From Lachnospiraceae bacterium (GTDB taxonomy: Bacteria; Bacillota; Clostridia; Lachnospirales; Lachnospiraceae), in contig JAFSDJ010000067.1 of assembly GCA_017436305.1 (NCBI GenBank), positions 1 to 43,209 of the forward strand: DNA of 43,209 bases. Reading direction: 5' to 3'. The translations under genes and the position numbers were made by a program. The stretch's first letter is position 1, and the number at the start of each line of letters is the position of its first letter. Of the stretch, positions 1,904 to 18,300 are shown piece after piece. Under the pieces are notes generated by a model. It was not told where the DNA came from and did no database searches. It saw only the letters and a program-made list of their open reading frames with translations.

Positions 1904-3352
1904 ATGGTGGAATATACTCAAAATGATGCACCAATTTATGATGCATTAGATCGTTTTCGAAAAATGAGGGTAGTACCCTTTGATGTACCCGGTCATAAAA
2001 GAGGAAGAGGAAATCCGGATTTAGTAAGGCTTTTAGGAGAGCAGTGCGTTGGGATTGACGTTAATTCCATGAAGCCTTTAGATAATCTGTGCCATCCGGT
2101 ATCGGTTATCAGAGCGGCTGAAAAGCTGGCAGCAGAGGCTTTTGGAGCGGAAGATGCTTTTTTAATGGTTGGTGGCACCACATCCTCTGTGCAAAGTATG
2201 GTATTAACTGTATGTAAACGGGGAGACAAGATTATTCTTCCAAGAAATGTACACAGAAGTGTGATTAATGCCCTTGTTTTATGCGGGGCAAAGCCGGTTT
2301 ATGTAAATCCGGAAGTAAATCAACGCCTTGGAATTTCATTAGGAATGGAACTTTCTCAGGTAGAGCAGGCAATTATAGACAATCCGGATGCAGTGGCAGT
2401 ACTTGTAAATAACCCTACCTATTATGGTATTTGTTCTGACTTGTGTTCCATTGTAAAGCTTGCCCATAGCCATGGCATGAAGGTATTAGCCGATGAAGCT
2501 CATGGTACACATCTTTATTTTGGAGAAAATCTTCCTATTTCTGCCATGAAGGCAGGAGCAGATATGGCAGCGGTCAGCATGCACAAATCAGGAGGAAGCT
2601 TGACACAAAGCTCCTTTTTATTAATTGGTCCTGGGATTAATGCCGGTTATGCAAGGCAGATTATTAATTTAACCCAGACTACAAGCGGTTCCTACCTGTT
2701 ATTGTCCAGTCTGGATATTTCCAGAAGAAATCTGGCACTAAGGGGAAAAGAAGAATACGCAAGAGTGGTGGAGTTAGCCGAATATGCCAGAGCAGAAATT
2801 AATCAGATTGGCGATTATTATGCTTATTCCAGAGAGTTAATAAATGGTAGCAGTATTTATGATTTTGATGTAACGAAGCTGTCTGTTAATACGTTGGATG
2901 TGGGACTGGCAGGCATTGAAGTATATGATATTTTGCGGGATGAGTACGATATACAAATAGAATTTGGAGATTTTGGCAATATTCTGGCTTATATTTCCGT
3001 AGGTGACAGGAAACAGGATATAGAACGTCTTGTCAGTGCTTTAGCAGAAGTAAAACGCCGCTATAAAAAGGATAAAACAGGACTTTTAACCCAGGAATAT
3101 ATAGAGCCAATGGTGGAAGTAACACCACAGGAAGCTTTTTATGCTGAAAAAGAATCAATAGCAATAAAAGATTCCGTAGGGCGTATTTGCAGTGAATTTG
3201 TTATGTGTTATCCGCCGGGAATTCCTATTATTGCACCGGGAGAGCGGATTACGGAAAAAATCGTGGAATACATTTATTATGCAAAGAAAAAAGGTTGTTC
3301 CATGACCGGACCGGAAGATGCCAATATTGAAAGGTTAAATGTGTTAAAGTAG
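1904..3352 (+). CDS. speA: PLP-dependent Orn/Lys/Arg decarboxylase, probable biosynthetic arginine decarboxylase
   Basis: This fold-type I PLP enzyme removes the carboxyl group of a basic amino acid. At 482 residues it is the short Gram-positive (YaaO/Bacillus SpeA-like) form. Visible landmarks are FDVPGHKRGRG near the N-terminus, the PLP-holding ADEAHGTH (Asp197, His200) and the Schiff-base lysine in SMHKSGGS (Lys228). The C-terminal part carries YPPGIPIIAPGE, characteristic of the family's C-terminal domain. AAGGAGA lies 8 nt before the ATG. Arginine as substrate is inferred from the neighbours: agmatine would feed the agmatinase encoded two genes downstream. Sequence alone does not separate arginine from lysine or ornithine specificity in this family, so the symbol is provisional. 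Confidence 0.87.
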   Translation: MVEYTQNDAPIYDALDRFRKMRVVPFDVPGHKRGRGNPDLVRLLGEQCVGIDVNSMKPLDNLCHPVSVIRAAEKLAAEAFGAEDAFLMVGGTTSSVQSMVLTVCKRGDKIILPRNVHRSVINALVLCGAKPVYVNPEVNQRLGISLGMELSQVEQAIIDNPDAVAVLVNNPTYYGICSDLCSIVKLAHSHGMKVLADEAHGTHLYFGENLPISAMKAGADMAAVSMHKSGGSLTQSSFLLIGPGINAGYARQIINLTQTTSGSYLLLSSLDISRRNLALRGKEEYARVVELAEYARAEINQIGDYYAYSRELINGSSIYDFDVTKLSVNTLDVGLAGIEVYDILRDEYDIQIEFGDFGNILAYISVGDRKQDIERLVSALAEVKRRYKKDKTGLLTQEYIEPMVEVTPQEAFYAEKESIAIKDSVGRICSEFVMCYPPGIPIIAPGERITEKIVEYIYYAKKKGCSMTGPEDANIERLNVLK

Positions 3353-3430
3353 TAGAAAAAGGTAATTATGAAGGCACTGAATAATTACAAAAAAGTTACG
3401 GTGTAACCAGTAACGAAGGGAGTGACAGCA

Positions 3431-4282
3431 ATGCAATTATGGTTTACAGAAAGACATACCCCTAATGTGAAGTTTTCAATCCGGGTAGACAGACAGCTTT
3501 ACAGCGGACACAGTGATTTTCAAAGAATCGATGTTTTTGAATCCAAAGAATTTGGACGATTTTTAACCTTAGACGGTTACATGATGCTAACGGAAAAGGA
3601 CGAGTTTATTTACCATGAAATGATTACCCATGTACCTATGGCAGTTCATCCAACAGCGGAAAAGGTGTTGGTCATTGGCGCAGGGGATGGAGGCGTAGTA
3701 AGGGAATTAACCCGTTATTCTTCCATAAAGCAAATTGACATGGTAGAAATCGATCCATTGGTTGTGGAGGTATGTAAAAAGTATTTACCGCAGACAGCCT
3801 GTAGATTAGATGATAAGAGGCTGAATATTTACTATGAGGACGGACTTCGTTACATTCGTTCTAAAGAAAATGCTTACGATTTGATTATTGTAGATTCTAC
3901 GGACCCCTTTGGACCGGGAGAAGGTTTATTTACTAAGGAATTTTATGGAAACTGCTACAAAGCATTAAAGGAAGATGGAATTATGGTAAATCAGCATGAA
4001 AGTCCATTTTATCCGGAGGATGCCATTGCTTGCCAGAGAGCTCATAAGAGAATTGTAGAAAGTTTTCCAATAAGCAAGGTTTATCAGGTGCATATTCCTA
4101 CTTATCCATCAGGCCATTGGTTGTTTGGATTTGCTTCCAAAAAATATCATCCGATTCATGATTTTGATGCAACCAAATGGAATATGCTTGGAATTGTTAC
4201 TAAATACTATACACCAAGATTACACAGCGGATGCTTTGCATTGCCTGCGTATGTAGAGGAGCTTTTAAGAGATGTTGAATAA
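3431..4282 (+). CDS. speE: Spermidine synthase-type aminopropyltransferase
   Basis: The protein transfers the aminopropyl group from decarboxylated SAM to an amine such as putrescine, or possibly agmatine. It has the small N-terminal beta domain (LDGYMMLTEKDEFIYHEM), then the Rossmann methyltransferase-like fold with VIGAGDGGVVRE (residues 81-92), the adenosine-binding acidic residue in MVEIDP, and the catalytic loop VDSTDPFGPG (154-163). QHESPFY follows, as in true spermidine synthases. A GTG at 3422 is in frame, but GAAGGGAG at 3415-3422 fits the ATG at 3431 better (8 nt spacing), giving 283 residues. The 3' end overlaps the agmatinase gene by 11 bp, so the two are probably translationally coupled. 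Acceptor specificity (putrescine against agmatine) cannot be read from the sequence. Confidence 0.92.
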   Translation: MQLWFTERHTPNVKFSIRVDRQLYSGHSDFQRIDVFESKEFGRFLTLDGYMMLTEKDEFIYHEMITHVPMAVHPTAEKVLVIGAGDGGVVRELTRYSSIKQIDMVEIDPLVVEVCKKYLPQTACRLDDKRLNIYYEDGLRYIRSKENAYDLIIVDSTDPFGPGEGLFTKEFYGNCYKALKEDGIMVNQHESPFYPEDAIACQRAHKRIVESFPISKVYQVHIPTYPSGHWLFGFASKKYHPIHDFDATKWNMLGIVTKYYTPRLHSGCFALPAYVEELLRDVE

Positions 4283-5123
4283 AAATGTAGAAACTTTTAT
4301 TGGCTGTGACTGTGAATATGAAGATGCAAAAGTTGTGTTATTCGGCGCACCTTTTGACTCTACCACTTCCAATCGGCCGGGTACCAGATTTGGAAGTAAG
4401 GCAATCAGGGGAGAGTCTTTTGGTCTTGAAACCTACAGCCCCTATCTGGATAAGGATATTACAGATTATAATTTCTTTGACAGTGGAGATTTGGAACTTT
4501 GCTTTGGAGATGCCTCTTTGGCACTTTCTGATATTGAAGAAAGAACCAAAACAATTTTAGAGGATGGAAAACTGCCTCTTATGATTGGTGGAGAGCATTT
4601 AGTTACTTTAGGTGCAGTCAGAGCAGTGTCAGAGAAATATCCGGACCTTCACATCATTCATTTTGATGCTCATGCGGATTTAAGGGATGACTATTTGGGA
4701 GCGAAGCTGTCTCATGCCTGTGTGCTTAGAAGATGCCATGATATTTTAGGAGATGGAAGGATTTTTCAGTTTGGAATCCGTTCCGGCGACAGAGAAGAGT
4801 TTGTATGGGGAAAAAACCATGTTTCCACTAGAAAATTTGACTTTGAAGGCTTAAAAGAAGTGGTAGAAAACTTAAAGGGGAAACCGGTTTATTTTACCAT
4901 TGATTTAGATGTATTAGACCCGTCTGTTTTTCCGGGAACAGGAACACCGGAAGCAGGGGGAGTCACTTTTTTACAGTTGTTAGATGCTATCTATACAGTA
5001 TGTAAAGGCAGTAAGATTGTGGCTTGTGACGTAAATGAGCTTAGTCCTTCTTATGACCCAAGCGGAATTTCAACGGCAACTGCCTGCAAGGTGGTTAGGG
5101 AGTTACTTTTGAGTCTTGTATAG
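4272..5123 (+). CDS. speB: Agmatinase-family ureohydrolase
   Basis: The protein hydrolyses a guanidino compound, agmatine or possibly N1-aminopropylagmatine, to urea and the free amine. All six manganese ligands of the arginase/agmatinase family are present: His in GGEHL (109), the DAHAD cluster (Asp132, His134, Asp136) and the DLD pair (Asp211, Asp213) in FTIDLDVLDPS. Length (283) is normal. The ATG lies within the last codons of speE (11 bp overlap). Because speE precedes speB and the pair is coupled, two orders of reaction are possible: agmatine to putrescine to spermidine, or agmatine to aminopropylagmatine to spermidine. The neighbourhood does not decide between them. Confidence 0.92.
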   Translation: MLNKNVETFIGCDCEYEDAKVVLFGAPFDSTTSNRPGTRFGSKAIRGESFGLETYSPYLDKDITDYNFFDSGDLELCFGDASLALSDIEERTKTILEDGKLPLMIGGEHLVTLGAVRAVSEKYPDLHIIHFDAHADLRDDYLGAKLSHACVLRRCHDILGDGRIFQFGIRSGDREEFVWGKNHVSTRKFDFEGLKEVVENLKGKPVYFTIDLDVLDPSVFPGTGTPEAGGVTFLQLLDAIYTVCKGSKIVACDVNELSPSYDPSGISTATACKVVRELLLSLV

Positions 5124-5230
5124 TCGATACAAAAAAAATAATATTATGTAAACCGAAACTATTATAAGTAAGTTAAAAACAAGTTAATATAAATAGAAAA
5201 ATACAACGAAAATCAGAAGGAGATAAGAAA

Positions 5231-6433
5231 ATGGGAAAAGCGCTTATTATTGGATGTGGCGGTGTGGCCAGTGTAGCAATTCACAAATGCTGCCAGAATA
5301 GTGATGTATTTGAGGAAATCTGTATTGCCAGCAGAACAAAGGAAAAATGCGATGCCCTAAAAGAAAAATTAGAGGGAACAACAAAAACAAAGATTACTAC
5401 TGCAAAGGTAGATGCAGATAAAGTAGATGAGCTGATTGCTCTTATTGAAAAAGAAAAACCGGACATTGTAGTAAATCTGGCTCTTCCATATCAGGATCTT
5501 ACTATTATGGATGCCTGCCTTGCAACAAAGACTCACTACATGGATACAGCAAACTATGAGCCGGAAGATACAGCTAAATTTGAATACAAATGGCAGTGGG
5601 CTTATAGAGAAAGATTTGAAAAAGCCGGTATTACAGCCCTTCTCGGAAGCGGTTTTGACCCGGGTGTAACAAGTGTATTTTCTGCCTATGCATTAAAACA
5701 CTACTTTGATGAAATTAACTATATTGACATTTTAGACTGCAACGCAGGAGACCATGGTTATCCATTTGCAACTAACTTTAACCCTGAGATTAATATACGT
5801 GAAGTGTCTGCAAAGGGTTCTTACTGGGAAGACGGACACTGGGTAGAAACAGAGCCAATGGAAATCAAGAGAGTATACGATTTTCCTGAAATTGGTGAAA
5901 AAGATATGTATTTACTTCATCATGAAGAAATTGAGTCATTGGCATTAAATATTCCCGGAATTAAAAGAATTCGTTTCTTTATGACTTTTGGACAAAGCTA
6001 TCTGACTCATTTAAAATGCCTTGAAAACGTAGGAATGACTTCCATCGAACCAATTATGTACGAAGGAAAAGAAATTGTACCGTTGCAGTTTTTAAAGGCA
6101 GTGTTGCCGGATCCATCCTCACTAGGTCCAAGAACAAAAGGAAAGACCAATATCGGATGTATTTTTATTGGAAAAAAAGATGGAGTAGAAAAGAAGCTTT
6201 ACATTTACAATACCTGTGATCATGAAGAATGTTATAAGGAAGTAGGCTCTCAGGCGGTAGCATATACAACAGGCGTGCCTGCTATGATTGGTGCTATGAT
6301 GCTTATGACAGGCACATGGAAGAAGGCAGGGGTTTACAACATTGAAGAATTTGATCCGGATCCATTTATGGAGGCGCTAAATAAATGGGGACTTCCGTGG
6401 AAGATTTCGGAGGATCCGAAACTTGTAGATTAA
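5231..6433 (+). CDS. Carboxynorspermidine/carboxyspermidine dehydrogenase (saccharopine dehydrogenase family)
   Basis: Members of this family join an amine (putrescine or diaminopropane) to L-aspartate beta-semialdehyde by NADPH-dependent reductive condensation, giving carboxyspermidine or carboxynorspermidine. The N-terminus shows the dinucleotide-binding IIGCGGVASVAIHKC. ALLGSGFDPGVTSVF and DCNAGDHGYPFATNFNP are hallmarks of the bacterial CASDH group and distinguish it from lysine-forming saccharopine dehydrogenases. Length is 400. GAAGGAGAT precedes the ATG closely. It follows speB after 107 AT-rich bases, a gap large enough for an internal promoter, although I found no convincing one. Its partner decarboxylase is the next gene, which makes the call firm; putrescine against diaminopropane as substrate is inferred from the operon. 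Confidence 0.9.
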   Translation: MGKALIIGCGGVASVAIHKCCQNSDVFEEICIASRTKEKCDALKEKLEGTTKTKITTAKVDADKVDELIALIEKEKPDIVVNLALPYQDLTIMDACLATKTHYMDTANYEPEDTAKFEYKWQWAYRERFEKAGITALLGSGFDPGVTSVFSAYALKHYFDEINYIDILDCNAGDHGYPFATNFNPEINIREVSAKGSYWEDGHWVETEPMEIKRVYDFPEIGEKDMYLLHHEEIESLALNIPGIKRIRFFMTFGQSYLTHLKCLENVGMTSIEPIMYEGKEIVPLQFLKAVLPDPSSLGPRTKGKTNIGCIFIGKKDGVEKKLYIYNTCDHEECYKEVGSQAVAYTTGVPAMIGAMMLMTGTWKKAGVYNIEEFDPDPFMEALNKWGLPWKISEDPKLVD

Positions 6434-6448
6434 AGAGGTAAATATAAG

Positions 6449-7576
6449 GTGAAAATAGAACAGTTACCTACCCCTTGTTATATTGTGGATGAGGGGAAAT
6501 TAAAAAACAATTTAGAGATTTTAAAAGGCGTTATGGATAGGACCGGATGTAAGATTTTGTTGGCACAGAAGGCGTTTTCCATGTTTTCGGTTTATCCGCT
6601 TATTGGGCAATATTTAAGTGGTGCTACTGCCAGTGGACTTTATGAAGCAAAGCTTGCTCATGAATATATGAAAGGGGAAAATCATATTTTTTCGCCTGCG
6701 TATAAAGAAAATGAGATTGATGAAATTGCGTCCATTTGCGGACATGTGGTGTTTAATTCTTTTTCACAGCTTGAAAGATTTGGGGAAAGAGTCAGAAAGC
6801 AGGGGGCCAGTGTGGGACTTCGGATTAATCCGGAACATTCTACCCAGCAGGGGCATGAAATTTATGATCCCTGTGCCAAAGGTTCAAGGCTTGGAATCCC
6901 TCTATCTTCTTTTAAACCGGAGCTTTTAGAAGGGGTAGAAGGGTTGCATTTTCATACCCTTTGTGAACAGAATGCAGATGCTCTTTCTGAAACATTAAAA
7001 GTTGTGGAAGAGAAGTTTGGACCATATATGAAACAGATGAAGTGGATTAATTTTGGTGGTGGACATCATATTACAAGAAGTGATTATGATATTGCCCTAC
7101 TTGAAAAATGTATTAATCACATTCAGGATGCTTATAAAGTCCGGGTTTATTTAGAGCCGGGAGAAGCAGTTGCCCTAAATGCCGGATATCTGCACACTAC
7201 TGTGCTTGAAACTATAGAAAATGATATTCGGATTGCTATTTTAGATACTTCTGCTGCATGTCATATGCCGGATGTACTGGAAATGCCCTATCGTCCACCT
7301 CTTTCAAAGTCTGGTGAGCAGGGAGAAAAGAAATATACTTACCGCCTTGCCGGTCCTACCTGTCTTGCAGGAGATGTGATTGGAGATTATTCCTTTGATG
7401 AGCCTTTAAAACCAGGAAGTCGACTGCAGTTTGAGGATATGGCTATTTATTCCATGGTGAAAAATAATACATTTAACGGCATGGCTTTACCGTCTATTGC
7501 TCTTATGAGAGAGAATGGGGACTGTAAGGTTGTGAAGGAGTTTGGGTATGAGGATTTTAAGATGAGGTTGTCGTAA
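6449..7576 (+). CDS. nspC: Carboxynorspermidine/carboxyspermidine decarboxylase
   Basis: This fold-type III (alanine racemase-like) PLP decarboxylase converts carboxyspermidine to spermidine or carboxynorspermidine to norspermidine. The N-terminus LPTPCYIVDEGKLKNNLEIL and the PLP lysine in ILLAQKAFSMF (Lys41) are diagnostic. GLHFHTLCEQ, WINFGGGHHI and YLEPGEAV give the phosphate-binding and active-site strands, and DTSAACHMPDVLEMPYRP is the NspC-type C-terminal motif. The start is GTG at 6449 with AAGAGGT upstream. It follows the dehydrogenase by 15 bp and is the last gene of the operon. The first large inverted repeat begins 27 bp after its stop codon. Confidence 0.92.
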   Translation: MKIEQLPTPCYIVDEGKLKNNLEILKGVMDRTGCKILLAQKAFSMFSVYPLIGQYLSGATASGLYEAKLAHEYMKGENHIFSPAYKENEIDEIASICGHVVFNSFSQLERFGERVRKQGASVGLRINPEHSTQQGHEIYDPCAKGSRLGIPLSSFKPELLEGVEGLHFHTLCEQNADALSETLKVVEEKFGPYMKQMKWINFGGGHHITRSDYDIALLEKCINHIQDAYKVRVYLEPGEAVALNAGYLHTTVLETIENDIRIAILDTSAACHMPDVLEMPYRPPLSKSGEQGEKKYTYRLAGPTCLAGDVIGDYSFDEPLKPGSRLQFEDMAIYSMVKNNTFNGMALPSIALMRENGDCKVVKEFGYEDFKMRLS

Positions 7577-7578
7577 GG

Positions 7579-7771
7579 AACTTGTGGAGGTTTATAGGGG
7601 GACGCGTGTGCAGGCAGATAGTAGGTTGGCTGGCACGCTGGCGCTCGGATAAAGACGCAGCGGTACTAATGCGCTTTAGGGACAGCGCATAAGGACCGGC
7701 GTCTTTATACGGCCTGCCAACCTACTATCTGCCTGCACACGCTGGGCGCTTTATGGCTCACAGAGTTTGTG
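7579..7771. repeat. Large nested inverted-repeat element
   Basis: Two 27-base arms, 7604-7630 and 7716-7742, are perfect reverse complements. Inside them lies a second stem (7649-7658 with 7699-7708, core ATAAAGACGC), then CGGT/ACCG (7661-7664 with 7695-7698), then ATGCGC/GCGCAT (7669-7674 with 7685-7690) closing a loop TTTAGGGACA. Outside the perfect arms, weaker complementarity (for example AACTTGTGG against CAGAGTTTGT) extends the element to roughly 7579-7771. It is visibly richer in G+C than its surroundings and encodes no credible protein. It could be a repetitive extragenic or MITE-like element, or a structured RNA. It may also end transcription of the polyamine operon, but no T-run follows it. 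Confidence 0.8.
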
Positions 7772-7875
7772 ACGACGGAGAAAGCCTGTTGGGTGAATTG
7801 AGTAATATAATATATTGAAATATGACAGATAAAAGAAAGCATATCAGGGGTAAAACTTTGGTATGTTTTTTTATA

Positions 7876-7938
7876 GTAACAGTTCAGCCATAGCTTGTAT
7901 CAATGAGCACATTGAACAAGCTATGGCTGAACTGTTAC
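7876..7938. repeat. Second long perfect hairpin, 23 bp plus 6 bp stem
   Basis: Arms 7876-7898 and 7916-7938 are perfect reverse complements (outer bases GTAACAGTTCAGCC). They are followed inward by a one-base bulge at 7899 and TCAATG/CATTGA (7900-7905 with 7910-7915) around a four-base loop. In total 29 base pairs form in 63 bases. The sequence just downstream has only ATTTTG, so it is not a classical terminator, though it could act as one. Such flawless stems usually point to a recently spread repetitive element or to a selected RNA structure. Confidence 0.8.
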
Positions 7939-7965
7939 ATTTTGTAAATTCCTCAGATTAATTTC

Positions 7966-7994
7966 TTGACAAGACTATGTATATGCTGTATATA
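7966..7994 (+). promoter_or_regulatory. Promoter of the ABC transporter cassette
   Basis: TTGACA at 7966-7971 and TATATA at 7989-7994 are 17 bp apart. It is about 100 bp upstream of the first ATPase start, and the -10 box lies inside the palindromic operator at 7986-8007. Confidence 0.75.
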
Positions 7995-8007
7995 TATTTA
8001 TATACAG
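7986..8007. promoter_or_regulatory. Candidate operator for the cassette's GntR repressor
   Basis: CTGTATATA (7986-7994) and TATATACAG (7999-8007) form a perfect 9 bp dyad with a 4-base centre, covering the promoter -10 box. GntR/YtrA-family repressors bind AT-rich dyads of about this size upstream of their own ABC operons. A repressor gene of this family lies in the same cassette (9721-10101), so autoregulation is a natural reading. Binding itself is inferred. Confidence 0.7.
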
Positions 8008-8096
8008 TTAATACACAATAAAAATTAAGAACAATAGAACAAGGCGTAGCTTAACCTACCTCTTATTTCATTTACCACAAAAGGAGACCACCCATC

Positions 8097-8951
8097 ATGC
8101 TAACAGTACAAAACGTAAGTAAAACTCTAGGAAACTTCCAGATAAAGGACATATCCTTCCAACTTCCAAAAGGCTACATCATGGGCTTAGTTGGGCCTAA
8201 TGGAGCCGGAAAAACCAGTTTGTTTCATCTTATTATGGGACTATACGAAATGGACCAGGGGCAAATTACTATAAATGATTTTGACATTACAAAGGAAGAG
8301 GCACTTGCCAAAAATGACATTGGTTTTGTTTTTACAGAAGAGCTGTTTACAGGGAATTTGTCATTAATAGAAAATGCCGGAATGTACGGAAAATATTATT
8401 CAGATTATAAAGAGGAGCTTTTCTTAAAATATTGTGAAACCTTTCATTTAGATGCAAATAAAAAGCTGAAAAAACATTCCAAAGGCGAAAAACTGAAATT
8501 TCAATTTGCCTTTGCCCTGTCCCATCAGCCTAAATTGCTTTTATTGGATGAACCAACTGCCAACTTTGACCCGGATTTTAGGGAAATTTTTTTTAAAATT
8601 CTTGTACAGTTTGTAAAGGATGGAGAACATAGTGTGATTTTATCCACCCATCTTACCAAAGATTTAGACAGACTGGCAGATTATGTAACATTTATTAATC
8701 ATGGAAAAGTAGTTTTCAGTCTGGATAAAGAAACCATGGGGCAGAGGTACCGACTTGTAACTGGTGAAGCATACAAAATTAATTTAATCAATAAAGAGTT
8801 GGTTTTACACAAGGAGAACGGAAAATATTCTTCTAAAGCTTTAGTGAAGCATACAAGGTGGAGTGAATATGACAAGGAACTTTTAGTAGAAATTCCAACC
8901 ATAGAGGATATTATGTATTTTATCGTGAAGGGAGAGAAAAAACATGCTTAA
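8097..8951 (+). CDS. ABC transporter ATP-binding protein (first of two)
   Basis: This is the ATP-hydrolysing subunit of an ABC exporter. The 284 residues include Walker A GPNGAGKT (33-40), a non-standard signature SKGEK (128-132, usually LSGGQ), Walker B LLLLDEPT (147-154) with the catalytic Glu, and the switch His in STHLTKD (185). A C-terminal extension of about 80 residues follows the nucleotide-binding domain. The degenerate signature with retained Walker motifs resembles YtrB/BcrA-type ATPases found with GntR regulators. AAAGGAGA lies before the ATG. It overlaps the membrane-protein gene by 8 bp. Substrate is unknown; cassettes of this kind often respond to cell-envelope antibiotics or bacteriocins, which is family knowledge and not shown here. 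Confidence 0.9.
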   Translation: MLTVQNVSKTLGNFQIKDISFQLPKGYIMGLVGPNGAGKTSLFHLIMGLYEMDQGQITINDFDITKEEALAKNDIGFVFTEELFTGNLSLIENAGMYGKYYSDYKEELFLKYCETFHLDANKKLKKHSKGEKLKFQFAFALSHQPKLLLLDEPTANFDPDFREIFFKILVQFVKDGEHSVILSTHLTKDLDRLADYVTFINHGKVVFSLDKETMGQRYRLVTGEAYKINLINKELVLHKENGKYSSKALVKHTRWSEYDKELLVEIPTIEDIMYFIVKGEKKHA

Positions 8952-9633
8952 AATGGTTGTTTCAGATTATATACAAAGCTGGAAAAGCGCATGGAAAAAT
9001 CTGGCAAAAGAAGGCTGGTTTGGTTACTTGTATTTCATTGCGTTTCCACTGGTGACGGATATGAAGGCCAGGCAGTCAATGGTATACCTATGCGCTGTAA
9101 TTCCCATGGTTCTTGGCATTTTACTTTCCAGATTATATCCAAACAGAATACATAAAACCTTGTTTCTTTGTCCTATGTCAAAAGAAGACAGAATTACTTA
9201 TTTCAAAACCGCTTTCAGGTTTCGGGTAAGTTTGCCGCTTATATTATTTTTGGTTGTAAATTCGGTACTTTTTATAAAGGACTACATCTCGCCATTGTAT
9301 CTGATAATAGAGTTTATTATTTTGTTTCTTTATGTAGTTTCCGTAAATATTTATTGGTGCTACTGGTCTACAGATGGAAAACGTAATATTTATTCAGAAA
9401 AAAATCATTTGTCAGGTACTTTTTTTATTTGGGATTTGTTTTCGTTAATAGGAGTTTTTAATATGGTAATTATAACGCCAATGTTAGTTTCTTCCCGGTT
9501 TGATTATATTATTGTGGGAATTTGTCTGGGATTACAGTTTTTTGTATTTTTTAAGCTGGTAACCCGTTATTATAAAAAAGTTATGGACTTATCTGTTAAT
9601 TATGAAGCCGGCTACGGAAAGAAAGATAAATAA
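8944..9633 (+). CDS. ABC transporter membrane subunit
   Basis: The protein has 229 residues, about six hydrophobic segments and no recognised catalytic motif. The amphipathic N-terminal stretch is followed by membrane segments at roughly 47-61, 96-111, 116-139, 158-176 and 180-202. Its start codon overlaps the end of the ATPase gene by 8 bp, so the two are probably translationally coupled and form a transporter. A short cytoplasmic motif, PMSKEDRITYFKTAFRFRVSL, is echoed in the small membrane protein at 10819-11280 (PVRKEDIWKVRAEYLKEF), suggesting that the two membrane proteins are distant paralogues. The transported substrate cannot be inferred. Confidence 0.8.
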   Translation: MLKMVVSDYIQSWKSAWKNLAKEGWFGYLYFIAFPLVTDMKARQSMVYLCAVIPMVLGILLSRLYPNRIHKTLFLCPMSKEDRITYFKTAFRFRVSLPLILFLVVNSVLFIKDYISPLYLIIEFIILFLYVVSVNIYWCYWSTDGKRNIYSEKNHLSGTFFIWDLFSLIGVFNMVIITPMLVSSRFDYIIVGICLGLQFFVFFKLVTRYYKKVMDLSVNYEAGYGKKDK

Positions 9634-9720
9634 ATTTTTCTAAAGAAAAATGGTGCAGGAGTGTTCCGGCAAAAGTATTGTAGAAATAGTGAAATCATAC
9701 AGAAAATACCGGAGGAAAAC

Positions 9721-10101
9721 ATGAAAATTGTAATTAGAACCCAGGGAACTATGGCAATCTATGAGCAGATTGTCAATCAATTAAAAAATGAAATTGTGAC
9801 CGGAAATCTAACAGCAGGAGAGGCACTTCCGTCCATCCGGGCACTTGCCAGTGAATTGGAAGTCAGTGTCATCACTACCAAAAGAGCCTATGAAGAACTT
9901 GAAAAAGAAGGTCTTATTCGTTCAGTAGCAGGTAAAGGTTTTTATGTATGTGAATATAATAAAACCTACTTAAAAGAAAAACAGATCATGATGTTAGAAA
10001 AAAGGCTCACAGAAGTGTTGTCAGACTGCAAAAAAGCAGGACTTTCCAAGGAGGACATAAAAGATATGGTGGAAACTTTATATGAGGAAGAAAGGATGTG
10101 A
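9721..10101 (+). CDS. GntR-family (YtrA-like) transcriptional regulator
   Basis: The N-terminal winged helix-turn-helix is clear: IYEQIVNQLKNEIVTGNL, then LPSIRALASELEVSVIT and the wing GLIRSVAGKGFYV. The short C-terminal part, about 45 residues with MMLEKRLTEVLSDCKKAGLS, lacks the large ligand domain of other GntR classes. That is typical of the YtrA subgroup, which represses ABC transporter operons. An upstream in-frame GTG at 9661 would add 20 residues, but GGAGGA at 9711-9716 directly before the ATG at 9721 decides the start, giving 126 residues. It lies between the two ATPase genes and probably binds the dyad at 7986-8007. Confidence 0.9.
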   Translation: MKIVIRTQGTMAIYEQIVNQLKNEIVTGNLTAGEALPSIRALASELEVSVITTKRAYEELEKEGLIRSVAGKGFYVCEYNKTYLKEKQIMMLEKRLTEVLSDCKKAGLSKEDIKDMVETLYEEERM

Positions 10102-10105
10102 GAAA

Positions 10106-10750
10106 ATGCTGCTTTCATGCAATCATGTAACTGGAACAAAAAAAGGATTTGCTTTAAATGATGTAACATTTTCTTTGGAAGCAGGCTTCATAATGGTTCT
10201 GGCAGGGGAAAACGGTGCAGGAAAGACTACACTTTTTAAAACCATTTTGGATAAAAAGAAACAATATACCGGAGAAATCTATTTAGATGGAAAAGAAATT
10301 TTCATAGACCATGAAAAAACTTTAAGCCGGATTGGGTTTGTTTCAGAGGAAAATATTTTTTTTAAGCAGTATTCGGCACTTGAAAATGCAAATCTGCTTT
10401 CGGTGTTTTATGAAAATTGGGACGGCATGGAATTTTTAAACAGTATGAAAAAAATGGGATTATCCGCCCACAAAATTGTGGGAAAAATGTCCAGAGGCGA
10501 GCTTATGAAGTTTCAGATGGCATTTGCCATGGCATATAAGCCAAAGCTTTATTTACTAGATGAAGCCACTGCCGGAATGGACCCGGTATTTCGCAAGGAT
10601 TTTTATAAGATTTTAAGAAGTATTATTGCAGAGGAGAAAGCCTCCATTATTATGACAAGCCATATTCAGGATGAATTGGAATTTCAGGCAGATTATTCCG
10701 GTATTATGAAAGAGGGAAGACTAGTACAGTTTAAAGAAAATATTGTTTAA
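10106..10750 (+). CDS. ABC transporter ATP-binding protein (second of two)
   Basis: This ATPase of 214 residues is shorter than the first and lacks its C-terminal extension. It shows Walker A GENGAGKT (34-41), an altered signature SRGEL (129-133), Walker B LLDEATAG (150-157, with Ala where Pro is usual) and the switch region MTSHIQDE (His186). I chose the ATG at 10106 because it starts just after the regulator's stop codon and has AAAGGA 9 nt upstream; an ATG at 10082 would overlap the regulator. The two ATPases share the odd signature form, so they may heterodimerise or serve two different membrane subunits. Confidence 0.88.
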   Translation: MLLSCNHVTGTKKGFALNDVTFSLEAGFIMVLAGENGAGKTTLFKTILDKKKQYTGEIYLDGKEIFIDHEKTLSRIGFVSEENIFFKQYSALENANLLSVFYENWDGMEFLNSMKKMGLSAHKIVGKMSRGELMKFQMAFAMAYKPKLYLLDEATAGMDPVFRKDFYKILRSIIAEEKASIIMTSHIQDELEFQADYSGIMKEGRLVQFKENIV

Positions 10751-13974: not shown

Positions 13975-15417
13975 ATGAATCGTTCAATTATTCGCTATAT
14001 TTTAGCAAGTGTTTTAGAATTTGAGGCATTGTTTTTATTACTGCCTTGTATCATTGCAATTATTTATAAAGAAGAAAGTTTCTTTGCATTTTTCATAGTG
14101 GCAGTTATCTGTTTTGGGTTAGGATGGCTTGGTAAGTTAAAAAAACCTAATATGGAGCAGTTTTATGCCAGAGAAGGCTTTGTAGCAGTTTCCTTAAGCT
14201 GGATTGTTTTAAGTATTATGGGGGCATTGCCATTTACCTTAAGTGGTGAAATTCCATCCTATGTGGATGCCCTATTTGAAACCATATCCGGTTTTACTAC
14301 AACCGGTTCCAGTGTACTGTCAGATATAGAAGCATTGTCGCACAGTGCTTTATTCTGGCGAAGCTTTACTCATTGGATTGGTGGTATGGGAGTGCTTGTA
14401 TTCATTCTGACAATTTTACCTTTGGCTGGTGGCTATAATATGTACCTTATGCGTGCAGAGTCTACCGGAGCAAATGTAAGTAAATTTGTACCAAGAGTGA
14501 AGGAATCAGCCAGAATTTTATACAAAATATACTTGGCAATTACTATAATTGTAGTGATTTGTCTGCTAATTGCAGGGATGCCATTATTTGATTCTCTCCT
14601 GTTAGCCTTTGGTACAGTAGGAACCGGTGGATTTGGTATTTTAAACGACAGTGTAGCTTCCTATTCAGTAGCAGTACAGGCAATACTTACCATATTTATG
14701 ATAGCCTGTGGTATTAACTTTAATGTGTATTATCTGTTGCTTGATAAAAAGCCAAAGGAAGCATTAAAATGCGAGGAAATGCGTTGGTATCTGCTTATAA
14801 TAGCCGCTTCTACAGCTATTATTACTTTTCAGGTGAGAGGAGATTTTGGCTCTATATTTGAAGCAATTCACCATGTACTGTTTCAAGTTGCATCCATTAT
14901 ATCAAGTACCGGATTTGGCACAGTAGATTTTGATAAATGGCCCGCTTTGTCCCGGTCTGTTTTAGTACTGATTATGTTTATTGGTGCCTGCGCCGGAAGT
15001 ACCGGTGGTGGTATGAAGGTTTCCAGAATTGTAGTACTTTGTAAGACGATTAAAAAAGAACTTTCCTACATTATACATCCAAGAATTATAAAGGGGATTC
15101 GCTTTGAAGGTAGCGTAGTGGCAAAAGAAACATTAAAATCCATTCAGGTTTACTTAACAACTGTAGTGGTAGTATTTGTTATATCGGTTATGCTTATTTC
15201 AATAGAAAATTATGATTTGGTTACTAATTTTACAGCTGTTTCCACCACCTTAAATAATATTGGTCCGGGACTTTCACGTGTTGGTCCTACATGTAATTTT
15301 GGGTTCTTTTCAGATTTTTCAAAGATTGTTTTAATGATTGATATGTTAATTGGAAGGCTTGAACTGTTCCCCATGCTTGTATTGATAGCCCCATCTACAT
15401 GGAGGAGAAATGGATAA
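13975..15417 (+). CDS. trkH: Trk/Ktr potassium uptake system, membrane subunit
   Basis: This is the pore-forming subunit of potassium uptake. The 480 residues contain four M1-P-M2 repeats. Selectivity-filter-like glycines are visible in ETISGFTTTGSSVL, FGTVGTGGFGI, SIISSTGFGTVDF and STTLNNIGPGL. The long loop HWIGGMGVLVFILTILPLAGG and the cytoplasmic CAGSTGGGMKVSR motif are family hallmarks. The gene follows trkA with a leader-less gap and GAGGAAAA before the ATG. Its C-terminus, LELFPMLVLIAPSTWRRNG, is typical. A strong terminator follows directly. Confidence 0.94.
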   Translation: MNRSIIRYILASVLEFEALFLLLPCIIAIIYKEESFFAFFIVAVICFGLGWLGKLKKPNMEQFYAREGFVAVSLSWIVLSIMGALPFTLSGEIPSYVDALFETISGFTTTGSSVLSDIEALSHSALFWRSFTHWIGGMGVLVFILTILPLAGGYNMYLMRAESTGANVSKFVPRVKESARILYKIYLAITIIVVICLLIAGMPLFDSLLLAFGTVGTGGFGILNDSVASYSVAVQAILTIFMIACGINFNVYYLLLDKKPKEALKCEEMRWYLLIIAASTAIITFQVRGDFGSIFEAIHHVLFQVASIISSTGFGTVDFDKWPALSRSVLVLIMFIGACAGSTGGGMKVSRIVVLCKTIKKELSYIIHPRIIKGIRFEGSVVAKETLKSIQVYLTTVVVVFVISVMLISIENYDLVTNFTAVSTTLNNIGPGLSRVGPTCNFGFFSDFSKIVLMIDMLIGRLELFPMLVLIAPSTWRRNG

Positions 15418-15427
15418 AAATACCAAA

Positions 15428-15458
15428 AATAAAAAAGAGCTTTGAGCTCTTTTTTATT
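15428..15458. terminator. Bidirectional intrinsic terminator
   Basis: A perfect 14-bp stem (15428-15441 with 15445-15458), core AAAGAGCT/AGCTCTTT, has a 3-base loop. A/T runs form the base of the stem, and the arrangement works for trkH on the forward strand and for the reverse-strand binding protein, whose stop codon lies within the right arm. Confidence 0.85.
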
Positions 15459-16287
15459 TTTTTCGGACGATAATCACCTGAGTAGAAGTAGCATAGCTGT
15501 CTGTAAAATCTACACTTTGTAATCGTTCATCTGTTACGGTAATAGCTGCAACACCAATATCAGCCCTACCGGATTGTACTGCATTTATGACCGCATCAAA
15601 TTCCATATCTTCAATTTTTAATTCATAACCAAGTTTATCGCAAATTGCCTGTGCAATATCCACATCGATGCCAACGATTTCTTTATCTACATAATATTCA
15701 TAGGGCTTGAAATCAACATTGGTAGCCATAACGAGAGTTCCCTTAGAGCGGTCAACTGAAGCAGGAGATTCATAAGGTGACCGGCCTTTTGTCTCATCTC
15801 CAATATAGTTTGAAATAATAGCTTCTAATGTACCATCTGTTTTTAATTCAGAGAGAGAGCTATTAATGGATGTAGTTAACTCAACGTTATCTTTAGATAT
15901 GCATATGGCATATTCTTCTGTGGAAAACTTTTCATCTAAAATCATTAAATCATCATTTTCTTCGATTATGGCTTTTGCCGGCTGTTCATCAACAATGATA
16001 CAATCAATTTCTCCCTGTTTTAATGCAGAAACAGCATCTGTTCCGTGGTGGAAACGTTTCACAGTGGAAGCTTCACCTTCGTAGTTTTGTGGGAAGACAC
16101 CACTTTCCAAATCTTCATAATCAGAAGCATAAATGTCGCCGGTAGTTCCAAGTTGTACCCCTATTTTTTTCCCGCACAAATCATTTACTGAAAAAACAGT
16201 GTTTTCAGGGACTTTGCTACAGCCTGTTAAGGATAAAATTGCAAGTACTGCCAGTGCAAGGATTGGAAATTTCTTTAAGTTTTTCAT
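15454..16287 (-). CDS. Amino-acid-type solute-binding lipoprotein with circularly permuted lobes
   Basis: This is a family 3 (polar amino acid) ABC solute-binding protein, anchored by a lipobox LSLTGC (Cys23). The two lobes are in reverse order. Residues 31-163 match what is normally the second half (LCGKKIGVQLGTTGD, ALKQGEIDCIIVDEQPA, EEYAICISKDN, LKTDGTLEAIISNYI). Residues 183-277 match what is normally the first half (KGTLVMATNVDFKPYEYY, IVGIDVDIAQAICDKLGY, AVQSGRADIGVAAITVTDER, VDFTDSYATSTQVIIVRKK). The cut falls at the hinge strand. Ligand residues are kept, including the carboxylate-binding Arg in TVTDER (255). A linker of about 20 residues joins the halves. The frame is intact and has its own promoter. 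No permease or ATPase gene is adjacent. Confidence 0.88.
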   Translation of the reverse strand: MKNLKKFPILALAVLAILSLTGCSKVPENTVFSVNDLCGKKIGVQLGTTGDIYASDYEDLESGVFPQNYEGEASTVKRFHHGTDAVSALKQGEIDCIIVDEQPAKAIIEENDDLMILDEKFSTEEYAICISKDNVELTTSINSSLSELKTDGTLEAIISNYIGDETKGRSPYESPASVDRSKGTLVMATNVDFKPYEYYVDKEIVGIDVDIAQAICDKLGYELKIEDMEFDAVINAVQSGRADIGVAAITVTDERLQSVDFTDSYATSTQVIIVRKK

Positions 16288-16320: not shown

Positions 16321-16349
16321 ATTATAGCAAAGTAATTCTTCTGTTACAA
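16321..16349 (-). promoter_or_regulatory. Promoter of the solute-binding protein gene
   Basis: On the reverse strand TTGTAA (16349-16344) and TATAAT (16326-16321) are 17 bp apart, about 35 bp upstream of the start codon. Confidence 0.75.
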
Positions 16350-16491
16350 CTGAAAATAGACAAGGAAATGCTGAAAAAACTGTAGGAAAAATACAGATTT
16401 TGTTGTAAAATGAAAACAGCCGGATGCGATAGGTTCCGGCAGACAAAGCATATATTTGTATAAACAAAAATAAATCAGGGGGGAAAGAGCG

Positions 16492-17472
16492 ATGATATTT
16501 AAATGCGTAAATTGTGGCGGTAACGTAATATATTCTCCGGAAAAGGCTGGTATGTATTGTCCTTACTGCGACAGTGATGAAAGTGGCGAAAAAGCACAGG
16601 GAGCAGGTTTTACCTGTATTAGCTGTGGGGCACCTTTAGAGGTAGAAGAGTTTACCAGTGCCTGCAAATGCAAATACTGTGGCTCTTACAGTATTTTAGA
16701 GGAAAGAGTAGAGGGAGAGTTTACCCCTCATTTAGTGCTTCCATTTAAAGTTGGTAAAAAACAGGCAAAGGAAAAAATTGTAGAGCAGTTCAAAAAGAAA
16801 CGGTTTATTCCAAGCGACTTTTTAAGCGAGGCCAAAATGGAAAAAATGGAAGGAAACTATGTTCCTTTCTTTATGTATGATTATGATTGTAAATACCATT
16901 ATGAGGGAATTGGCAAAAAAGTAAGAGTGTGGAGAAGCGGTAATACAGAATATACAGAAACCTCGCTATATAAAGTTGAAAGAAATATGGACGTTGACTT
17001 TGCCGGGATTCCCGTGGATGCATCTAAAGGCATGAAGGATGACATGATGGACTTATTAGAGCCTTATGATTATCAAGCCTTAGAGCAGTTCCAGGATAAG
17101 TATTTATCAGGCTTTTTGTCAGAACGTTACAATATGGGGTCAGAGGAATTGTCCATAAGAGCCAGAGAAAAAGCAAAAAAAGATGCGGAAAGTATGATAA
17201 AAAGCACCTTAACAGCGTATCAAAGTGTAAAAACAGAAAGTGACGAGGCAAATTTAAGCTTAAAGGACACTAAGTATTCCCTTCTTCCGGTCTGGTCCTA
17301 TTTGTATGAATACGGTGGAAAGAAGTATGAGTTTCATTTAAATGGTCAGACAGGCAAATTAGTAGGAGAACCACCTATTTCCACCAAAAAGGTTGTAGCT
17401 TATTCGACCACTACCTTCCTTGGAGTTTTTGCCATACTAAACTTTTTACGTATGATTTTGGAGGTGATTTAA
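16492..17472 (+). CDS. Zinc-ribbon protein with C-terminal membrane anchor
   Basis: The first 65 residues hold two zinc-ribbon-like units: CVNC with CPYC (Cys 5, 8, 23, 26) and CISC with CKYC (Cys 42, 45, 60, 63). The middle, about 75-295, includes a conserved-looking LVLPFKVGKKQAKEKI stretch and a YVPFFMYDYDCKYHYEG beta section. It is followed by a helical stretch and a single hydrophobic segment near the C-terminus (about 303-322). It resembles proteins annotated as TFIIB-type zinc-ribbon or PriA-like zinc-finger proteins in Clostridia, whose role is not established. A GC-rich hairpin (GCCGGA/TCCGGC, 16419-16440) lies in the leader, and GGGGGGAAAG serves as ribosome binding site. The TPM-domain gene starts immediately at the stop codon, so the two probably act together. 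Confidence 0.75.
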   Translation: MIFKCVNCGGNVIYSPEKAGMYCPYCDSDESGEKAQGAGFTCISCGAPLEVEEFTSACKCKYCGSYSILEERVEGEFTPHLVLPFKVGKKQAKEKIVEQFKKKRFIPSDFLSEAKMEKMEGNYVPFFMYDYDCKYHYEGIGKKVRVWRSGNTEYTETSLYKVERNMDVDFAGIPVDASKGMKDDMMDLLEPYDYQALEQFQDKYLSGFLSERYNMGSEELSIRAREKAKKDAESMIKSTLTAYQSVKTESDEANLSLKDTKYSLLPVWSYLYEYGGKKYEFHLNGQTGKLVGEPPISTKKVVAYSTTTFLGVFAILNFLRMILEVI

Positions 17473-18300
17473 GTGGATTACATAAAAGATTTTTTGAAGC
17501 AGTTTAAATGGATGTTTCTTGTTTTAGTCATTACTTTTGTTATATGGATTTTTGTGGTTGTGATTCCAAAGGATGATAATAGTCAGGAGATTTACACAAG
17601 GACCAATGACCAGTGTGACACAACAGAAAGAGTATTTGATTATGCTGATAAATTAACAGACGTAGAGGAAGATTTGCTTAGAGGATTAATTGCCCAGAGA
17701 GAAGACCAGATTGGCTGTGACATTGTACTTGTTACTATTGATGAGCAGTTAGATAAAAGTTTAATGGCTTATGCAGATGATTTTTATGATAATCATATGT
17801 ATGGATATGATGAGCCATGGGGAGACGGAGTTGTTTATGTAGATAACTGGTATGATGGTAATGTATGGTTCTCTACATGCGGTAAGGCAGAACATAACTA
17901 TTCTACATCCATGATAAACGATTTAATTGACGATGTAACAAGCATTACCAATGAAGACCCCTACCAGGCTTATACCCGTTATGTTAATGACGTGTATTAC
18001 CAGATGTCAGGTAGGTCAATTAATTCCTTTAATATGCCAATTTCTGCCGTACTTGTGTTAGCTATAGTAATTACCATTGTTTATACTGCAACTGGTGTTG
18101 CTAATACAAAAGCAAAACGTACTACTACAAATACTACTTACGTTCCGGCAGGAAGACCTGATATGGGACTATGCAATGATAATTTTATAAGCAAGCATAC
18201 AACCCACAGAAGAATTGAGTCAAGCAGTGGAGGCGGTGGTGGCGGACATCACAGATCCAGTGGAGGTCATTCTCATGGTGGAGGCGGCGGACGTCATTAA
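17473..18300 (+). CDS. TPM-domain (YgcG-like) membrane protein with Gly/His-rich tail
   Basis: The gene starts with GTG directly after the stop codon of the zinc-ribbon gene, implying translational coupling. The 275 residues contain a membrane segment (about 13-31), an extracytoplasmic TPM domain (about 53-180; VFDYADKLTDVEEDLLRGL, CDIVLVTIDEQ, GDGVVYVDNWYDGNVWFSTC), a second membrane segment (about 188-210) and a cytoplasmic tail that ends in Gly-, Ser- and His-rich sequence (SSGGGGGGHHRSSGGHSHGG). Such tails are common in this family. TPM proteins have been linked to photosystem repair in plants and to acid phosphatase activity in vitro; the bacterial role is unknown. The pair of a zinc-ribbon and a TPM protein suggests an envelope or metal-related function, by inference. 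Confidence 0.8.
   Translation: MDYIKDFLKQFKWMFLVLVITFVIWIFVVVIPKDDNSQEIYTRTNDQCDTTERVFDYADKLTDVEEDLLRGLIAQREDQIGCDIVLVTIDEQLDKSLMAYADDFYDNHMYGYDEPWGDGVVYVDNWYDGNVWFSTCGKAEHNYSTSMINDLIDDVTSITNEDPYQAYTRYVNDVYYQMSGRSINSFNMPISAVLVLAIVITIVYTATGVANTKAKRTTTNTTYVPAGRPDMGLCNDNFISKHTTHRRIESSSGGGGGGHHRSSGGHSHGGGGGRH

Follow-up and report, generated by a model that had tools for sequence, protein, structure and literature searches.

The window, a stretch of 43,209 nucleotides from contig JAFSDJ010000067.1 of a Lachnospiraceae bacterium, carries on its minus strand at 15454-16287 a gene for a solute-binding protein (SBP) of family 3 whose two halves stand in swapped order. The open reading frame (ORF) is unbroken and its 277-residue product begins with a lipoprotein-like signal, so that the intact frame described in an earlier account of this DNA made from the letters alone (the sequence-only reading) is borne out; that reading named no strand. 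The gene and its parts are the following.

15454..16287, minus strand: coding sequence of the permuted solute-binding lipoprotein, 277 amino acids and stop codon
16219..16287, minus strand: signal peptide and lipobox, residues 1-23 (LTGC at residues 20-23, read by eye; lipidation of Cys23 presumed)
15799..16197, minus strand: residues 31-163, the usual C-terminal half, now leading (Pfam, PDB phmmer search, half-profiles)
15742..15810, minus strand: residues 160-182, new junction from the old C-terminus to the old N-terminus (alignment of 26 proteins)
15457..15741, minus strand: residues 183-277, the usual N-terminal half, now trailing (Pfam, PDB phmmer search, half-profiles)
15523..15525, minus strand: codon of Arg255 (residue invariant in 26 aligned proteins)

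Residues 31-163 are taken to be most of lobe II with the return to lobe I (limits from the E. coli glutamine-binding protein), and residues 183-277 are presumably the start of lobe I with the strand crossing into lobe II.

The Pfam profile SBP_bac_3 (PF00497) matches the whole protein with 116.8 bits (cut-off 26.4) in two stretches, profile positions 1-92 falling on residues 185-276 and positions 97-129 on residues 107-161, with the N-terminal piece alone scoring 21.2 bits, which is below the cut-off. The best PDB match found with phmmer, 4zv1 (AncQR), is aligned over residues 181-276 with chain positions 8-104 (72.5 bits) and over residues 29-163 with positions 107-232 (61.1 bits), and two purpose-built hidden Markov models (HMMs) of the halves, whose training set includes the window protein, give 167 and 150 bits. 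The C-terminal half thus precedes the N-terminal half, as the sequence-only reading had claimed, and the standard order that would have told against that claim is not what the two segments match. By score the protein belongs to SBP_bac_3, but its order is C-N instead of the canonical N-C, and it is described here as a permuted branch of the family and not as a canonical member. More specific models do not claim it: TIGR01096 (lysine/arginine/ornithine SBP) gives 122.9 bits against a curated cut-off of 256.35, each of the 16 NCBIfam models listed falls short of its own cut-off, and the OpuAC profile (which we take to be PF04069) is not among the five Pfam families matched at E values up to 1. 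In profile searches the protein passes for an ordinary SBP, and the swap shows only when the order of the matches is examined.

The homologues of the same order that the sequence-only reading had proposed to look for are present in many other genomes. Four of five same-genus genomes encode a 74% identical protein that is collinear over its full length, and a scan of a species-genome collection gave 27 loci with 46-70% identity, mostly in records titled as metagenome-assembled genomes (MAGs) or uncultured organisms, the exceptions being Pseudobutyrivibrio xylanivorans MZ8, P. ruminis AD2017 and Lachnospiraceae bacterium G11. In an alignment of 26 proteins (the window protein and 25 of the 27 loci, the near-copies L050 and L051 being omitted) the junction NYIGDETKG at residues 160-168 is invariant in all 26, and because these lie on separate contigs the assembly join that had been considered at about 15735-15800 is excluded. 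Arg255, Asp100 and other residues are likewise invariant in all 26; by alignment Arg255 is presumably the arginine that binds the ligand carboxylate in canonical amino-acid SBPs, and its retention agrees with the earlier account.

Alignments that span the junction can be misleading. Among 127 matching records of a plasmid collection, the two junction-spanning rows that were inspected, H4 (Streptococcus suis) and H12 (Rhizobium), were rejected as permutants, since an order check showed that their alignments begin upstream of ordinary canonical genes, which is tblastn over-extension; order was therefore read with one profile per half, applied to SBP ORFs. The 167 ORFs read in this way (distinguished by their last 120 residues, with the genes L023/L061 and L103/L148 each counted twice) comprise 50 standalone C-N proteins including that of the window, 30 fused C-N proteins with more than 150 residues beyond the last half, 28 C-N-C proteins (27 with break B and one with break D, as defined below), 45 standalone canonical proteins, one canonical protein with a long tail, and a remainder of tandem or partial forms. 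Twenty further loci chosen for odd match spans gave 3 C-N and 17 canonical orders; with permuted proteins as queries, these counts of orders are not frequencies. Full-length homologues of the same order occur in 39 of 392 independent assemblies, a count that omits G375 (a canonical triple) and tandem or divergent fused matches and whose order check covered all except G396, G088, G373, G398 and G151. Judged from their sequences, the relatives show the swapped order to be real and apparently common in gut bacteria.

The favoured interpretation, to which a probability of about 0.88 is assigned, is that the window protein is a native circular permutant of the family 3 (polar amino acid) SBPs with an importer role, encoded at an orphan locus and belonging to one of several permutant lines, which would be spread over Clostridia and their relatives. 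The protein likely binds an amino acid; an alpha-amino acid would be held between the lobes by the conserved Arg255 and Asp100 and handed, as by canonical SBPs, to an ATP-binding cassette (ABC) importer of the polar amino acid transporter (PAAT) type. In fused forms the permease, and otherwise the lipid anchor, would be attached to lobe II where canonical SBPs have this link on lobe I. The orphan in the window would either share another permease or shift to a new or reduced role.

The orphan state follows from the gene order on the downstream side of the SBP, where the window has the following.

15418..15453: gap of 36 bases from the TrkH gene (last base 15417) to the SBP stop codon (from 15454); same-genus relatives have permease, ATPase and further genes here

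Because four of the five same-genus genomes (G001, G002, G003 and G005) have the SBP gene followed directly by genes for a permease and an ATPase (BPD_transp_1 and ABC_tran by Pfam in G001), the window copy appears to have lost both at this locus, and by comparison of gene orders it is a secondary orphan here. A permease or ATPase adjacent to the window gene was looked for and none was found, which upholds the sequence-only reading. The flanks are common to the window and these relatives, with TrkA and TrkH on one side and weakly zinc-ribbon-like, TPM-domain, Gpr and rpsT genes on the other (by-eye assignments for TrkA, Gpr and rpsT), and the other relative loci viewed mostly carry a permease-ATPase pair or a fusion. 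It is possible, though on balance unlikely, that the protein acts in this genome as a sensor or scavenging decoy outside any importer. The absence of transport genes at the locus and the raised nonsynonymous divergence discussed below would suit such a role, as would the sole permease match elsewhere in the genome, which is 34% identical and lies on contig 32 next to a canonical SBP (from a search for the permease and not the ATPase); against this, no receptor or kinase was recognised in the neighbouring ORFs, and SBPs can serve permeases that are encoded elsewhere.

Four break sites were mapped on the C-half profile of 117 positions: A, at its start, in the window protein; A', about 4 positions in, which leaves residues of helix-like character at the C-terminus (L073, L185, L188); D, at about position 24 (L168); and B, at about position 64 (L017/L070, L024 and others). 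The sequence-only reading had placed the window protein's break within the inter-lobe hinge strand; it lies instead just after the last strand of the predicted model, 266-275, which is taken to run through the hinge to lobe II. Each of the four breaks is located in the C-half, presumably lobe II, and puts both chain ends there, so that the lipid anchor or permease link would shift to lobe II. No break in the N-half was seen among the ORFs whose order was read, which with permuted queries is no unbiased census; L173, of order N-C-N, begins at the edge of its stretch. Junctions, by HMM limits, have 15-19 residues in most lines viewed and 28-30 in L073 and L074, and A-order proteins with junctions of 27-28 residues resembling that of L074 occur in three further genera (L200-L202, outside the trees). 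Permutant B is present at full length in 24 of 250 family genomes (one per genus, all 24 order-checked, with G035 omitted as a separate line); examples are L024, L111, L113 and L123-L146.

Phylogenetic trees indicate that the permutation very probably arose more than once. At least 8 order changes are required on a tree of 97 units (140 thinned at 80% similarity, with duplicate loci removed), and on the best tree of 69 hand-picked units, in which arrays are represented by their first two units only and L103 by one, there are 11 changes between permuted and canonical order, at least 6 of which are forced by starred branches. The approximately unbiased (AU) test rejects single clades for the 61 A-order units (p 0.00075), for all 35 permuted units (p 1e-42) and for the main A group with L074 (p 1e-48); the groups were set by order, except the last, which was named after viewing a tree. 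A single ancient permutation followed by several reversions to the canonical order would accommodate the deep branching of the tandem permuted clade, the AU result for permutant B given below, and change counts that do not distinguish gain from loss, but it is a very improbable history, given four distinct break sites, the placement of the permutant L074 beside the canonical L044 (support 100/99), and a set of 51 PDB sequences matched by the family profile, in which a canonical tandem, 6h30, is alone in having its best stretch run through the junction. One permutant may also derive from another, L168 (genome G697, 1390-2196), with break D, joining L163, with break A, on the tree (100/99).

Tandem duplication followed by trimming of the outer parts, which had been put forward at the outset as the origin of the swapped order, is a plausible candidate. 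The locus L103 (G375, 3410-6313) encodes a permease fusion with three near-identical canonical SBP domains, an array of the kind from which trimming could yield permutants; traced as a parent, this canonical triple has a linker unlike the window junction.

Permuted domains stand alone, are fused to a permease, or form arrays of 2, 3 or 5 before a permease-like part. The fusion in L056 was checked with Pfam (SBP_bac_3 and BPD_transp_1), the other fusions being assigned by length and by eye. Two-unit permuted arrays are found in L061, L106, L107, L108 and L170, three-unit arrays in L105 (G285, 2230-5331) and L199 (stretch incomplete), and a five-unit array, checked with Pfam, in L104 (G311, 2570-7150). 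The L061 protein (7106-10537, 1143 residues) continues into a part that looks ATPase-like by eye and is nearly a one-chain importer. A permease and an ATPase both lie beside the A' protein L073 and the A proteins L074, L112 and L161, and beside permutant B in seven of nine stretches viewed, L070 having the permease only and L158 ending at the SBP. A fused form, L060, occurs in a MAG titled Alphaproteobacteria (an origin taken from the record title), and among 12 genomes of that order there are four full-length fusions with L060 counted, one shorter (L198) and one weak tandem match (L199); for these permuted SBP-permease fusions (L060 and L195-L199, with one TGA within the L197 match) transfer across phyla is possible.

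The AlphaFold 2 monomer model of the window protein is good (predicted local distance difference test, pLDDT, 84.9) with a confident core; pLDDT is below 50 at residues 1-24 and averages 61 in the block 161-170. In a structure comparison (VIA), model residues 30-277 match the OpuAC protein 2b4l in the top row, tied with LysR effector domains, and the rows consist of binding proteins of what we take to be the type II fold and of LysR effector domains. The model thus has the two-lobed type II fold and matches complete two-lobed binding proteins, which fits the earlier expectation that the fold could survive the rearrangement. Canonical amino-acid SBPs are absent from the 50 rows, as is to be expected of a sequential aligner; their absence is no evidence for a different fold. 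The permuted-frame arrays can also be interpreted as rows of canonical units whose outer halves hang free, in keeping with a domain-swapped dimer in which the chain does not close on itself and each C-half is paired with the N-half of a second molecule; such an arrangement is very unlikely in view of the many single-unit proteins (the 50 standalone and 30 fused ORFs), the confident core of the monomer model, and a junction of 15-19 residues in most lines viewed, long enough to bridge the ends.

Several observations weigh against the interpretation of the window protein as an importer-type permutant from one of several lines. The fifth same-genus genome, G004, lacks the gene and gives weak matches only, and the window genome is 84% complete in 107 contigs, so that a relocated permease is possible. 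Nonsynonymous divergence (dN) between the window and its sibling L075, scaled to that between L063 and L075, is 5.0-fold for the SBP, the largest of nine genes, against 1.8- to 3.5-fold for its eight neighbours, with synonymous sites of the SBP saturated; the gene seems to be constrained but evolving somewhat faster, and its function may be relaxed. The AU test does not reject a single clade for permutant B (p 0.228), and the trees rest on about 215 columns and have long branches, with L015, L016, L112 and L120 shifting between them; the exact number of events is uncertain because of these long branches and shifting rows and because the change counts are blind to gain versus loss. The structural model was built from permuted homologues only, and since OpuAC is tied with LysR domains the structural match alone is no proof of the swapped order. 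The weakest alternative, that the gene is an artefact of assembly or recombination or else a chimera of two SBP genes undergoing decay, can draw on the 107 contigs, the missing operon partners and the raised dN, but it is extremely unlikely. An artefact is refuted by the 26 proteins on separate contigs that share the order and the unvarying junction; the intact frame, the four same-genus genomes with the same order at 74% identity, and a dN that is small beside the saturated synonymous sites also speak against this alternative.

Canonical SBP_bac_3 proteins (4zv1, and L018-L022 and L026 among the loci) have the same halves, ligand residues and lipobox as the window protein, the nearest having identities of 56-62% (N-half) and 45-54% (C-half); the window protein differs from them in its swapped halves, its new junction, and the shift of its termini from lobe I to what are presumably sites on lobe II. 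The ligand-binding domain of ionotropic glutamate receptors (PF10613, matched with 32.7 bits against a cut-off of 30) belongs to an ion channel and is split rather than permuted, so that it offers an analogy only, with the channel inserted, as we assume, at about the position of break A. In the tandem SBP domains of the glutamine transporter 6h30, which are also fused to a permease, C1-N2 is collinear with the window protein, but each domain there is canonical N-C, whereas the arrays described here start with a C-half and end with an N-half. Because 6h30 alone among the 51 PDB sequences (E up to 1e-20) has its best stretch running through the junction, no solved structure of the swapped order was found.

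Permuted binding proteins as such are already known. The glycine betaine-binding protein OpuAC (2b4l), which matches nearly the whole window chain, is taken to belong to a Pfam family other than SBP_bac_3. Circular-permutation relations of glycine betaine-binding proteins (2b4l included) with one another and with molybdate-binding proteins and CysB are reported in PMC2395249, with less than 24% identity within the group, unlike the recent permutants reported here. Tp0684 (TpMglB-2), a proposed "Type Ic" glucose-binding lipoprotein with a solved crystal structure, is reported to be a native permuted binding lipoprotein of an ABC importer that binds its ligand, changes conformation and has Gram-positive gut relatives (PMC4990184); it differs in its type I (cluster B) sugar-binding fold, in which the N lobe is permuted, and in its break. 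The family and structure matches of the window protein fall on proteins other than Tp0684, in searches that made no head-to-head comparison. The literature searched, with subscription papers mostly outside its scope, contains no native SBP_bac_3 permutant, and none appears in the available text of PMC2861598, PMC2912341 and PMC7683729; the statement in the sequence-only reading that no native permutant had been described is accordingly uncontradicted there for this family, but does not extend to other families (PMC4990184, PMC2395249). What is new is the recent, repeated, multi-site permutation within an amino-acid SBP family.

In glutamate receptors the lobe II arrangement couples ligand closure to the channel. 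A tentative and rather doubtful suggestion is that permutation was repeatedly selected because it moves the anchor or permease link from lobe I to lobe II. If this were true, the permuted forms, whose fused and array versions would lead directly from lobe II to the permease, would constitute a mechanically different and more directly coupled class of ABC importer that evolved several times. The swapped halves amount to a natural experiment in protein rewiring, in which one bacterial family contains permuted and canonical relatives that still share 56-62% of their N-half residues, together with four breaks and three architectures. These native proteins allow tests of how permutations originate and become fixed, of whether breaks are restricted to a single lobe, and of how anchoring by the other lobe affects ligand closure and transport.

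The transcription signals at the gene are the following.

16321..16349, minus strand: sigma-70-like promoter, TTGTAA-17-TATAAT with TG before the -10 element, weak alone
15425..15461, minus strand: terminator-like hairpin of 17 pairs overlapping the SBP stop codon, weak

The promoter-like site (16349-16321) scores 10 of 12. Both of the signals that the sequence-only reading had assigned to the gene are present, but they are weak evidence, since shuffled sequence gives on average 4.5 promoter-like sites where the region has 7, and 0.5 terminator-like sites where it has 1. At Rfam gathering thresholds, a riboswitch or T-box that might hint at the ligand was sought, with no match in the window and one in 11 relative loci; this match, a TwoAYGGAY RNA (RF01731) in L075 (sibling G001) at 16435-16599, lies just upstream of a lepA-like gene, away from the operon. 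Beside the SBP gene, at 16492-18300 of the window, stands a gene pair that is also found in L063 and L075, encoding a TPM-domain protein whose tail is rich in Gly, His and Ser and a protein with a weak resemblance to zinc ribbons that scores under the Pfam cut-off.
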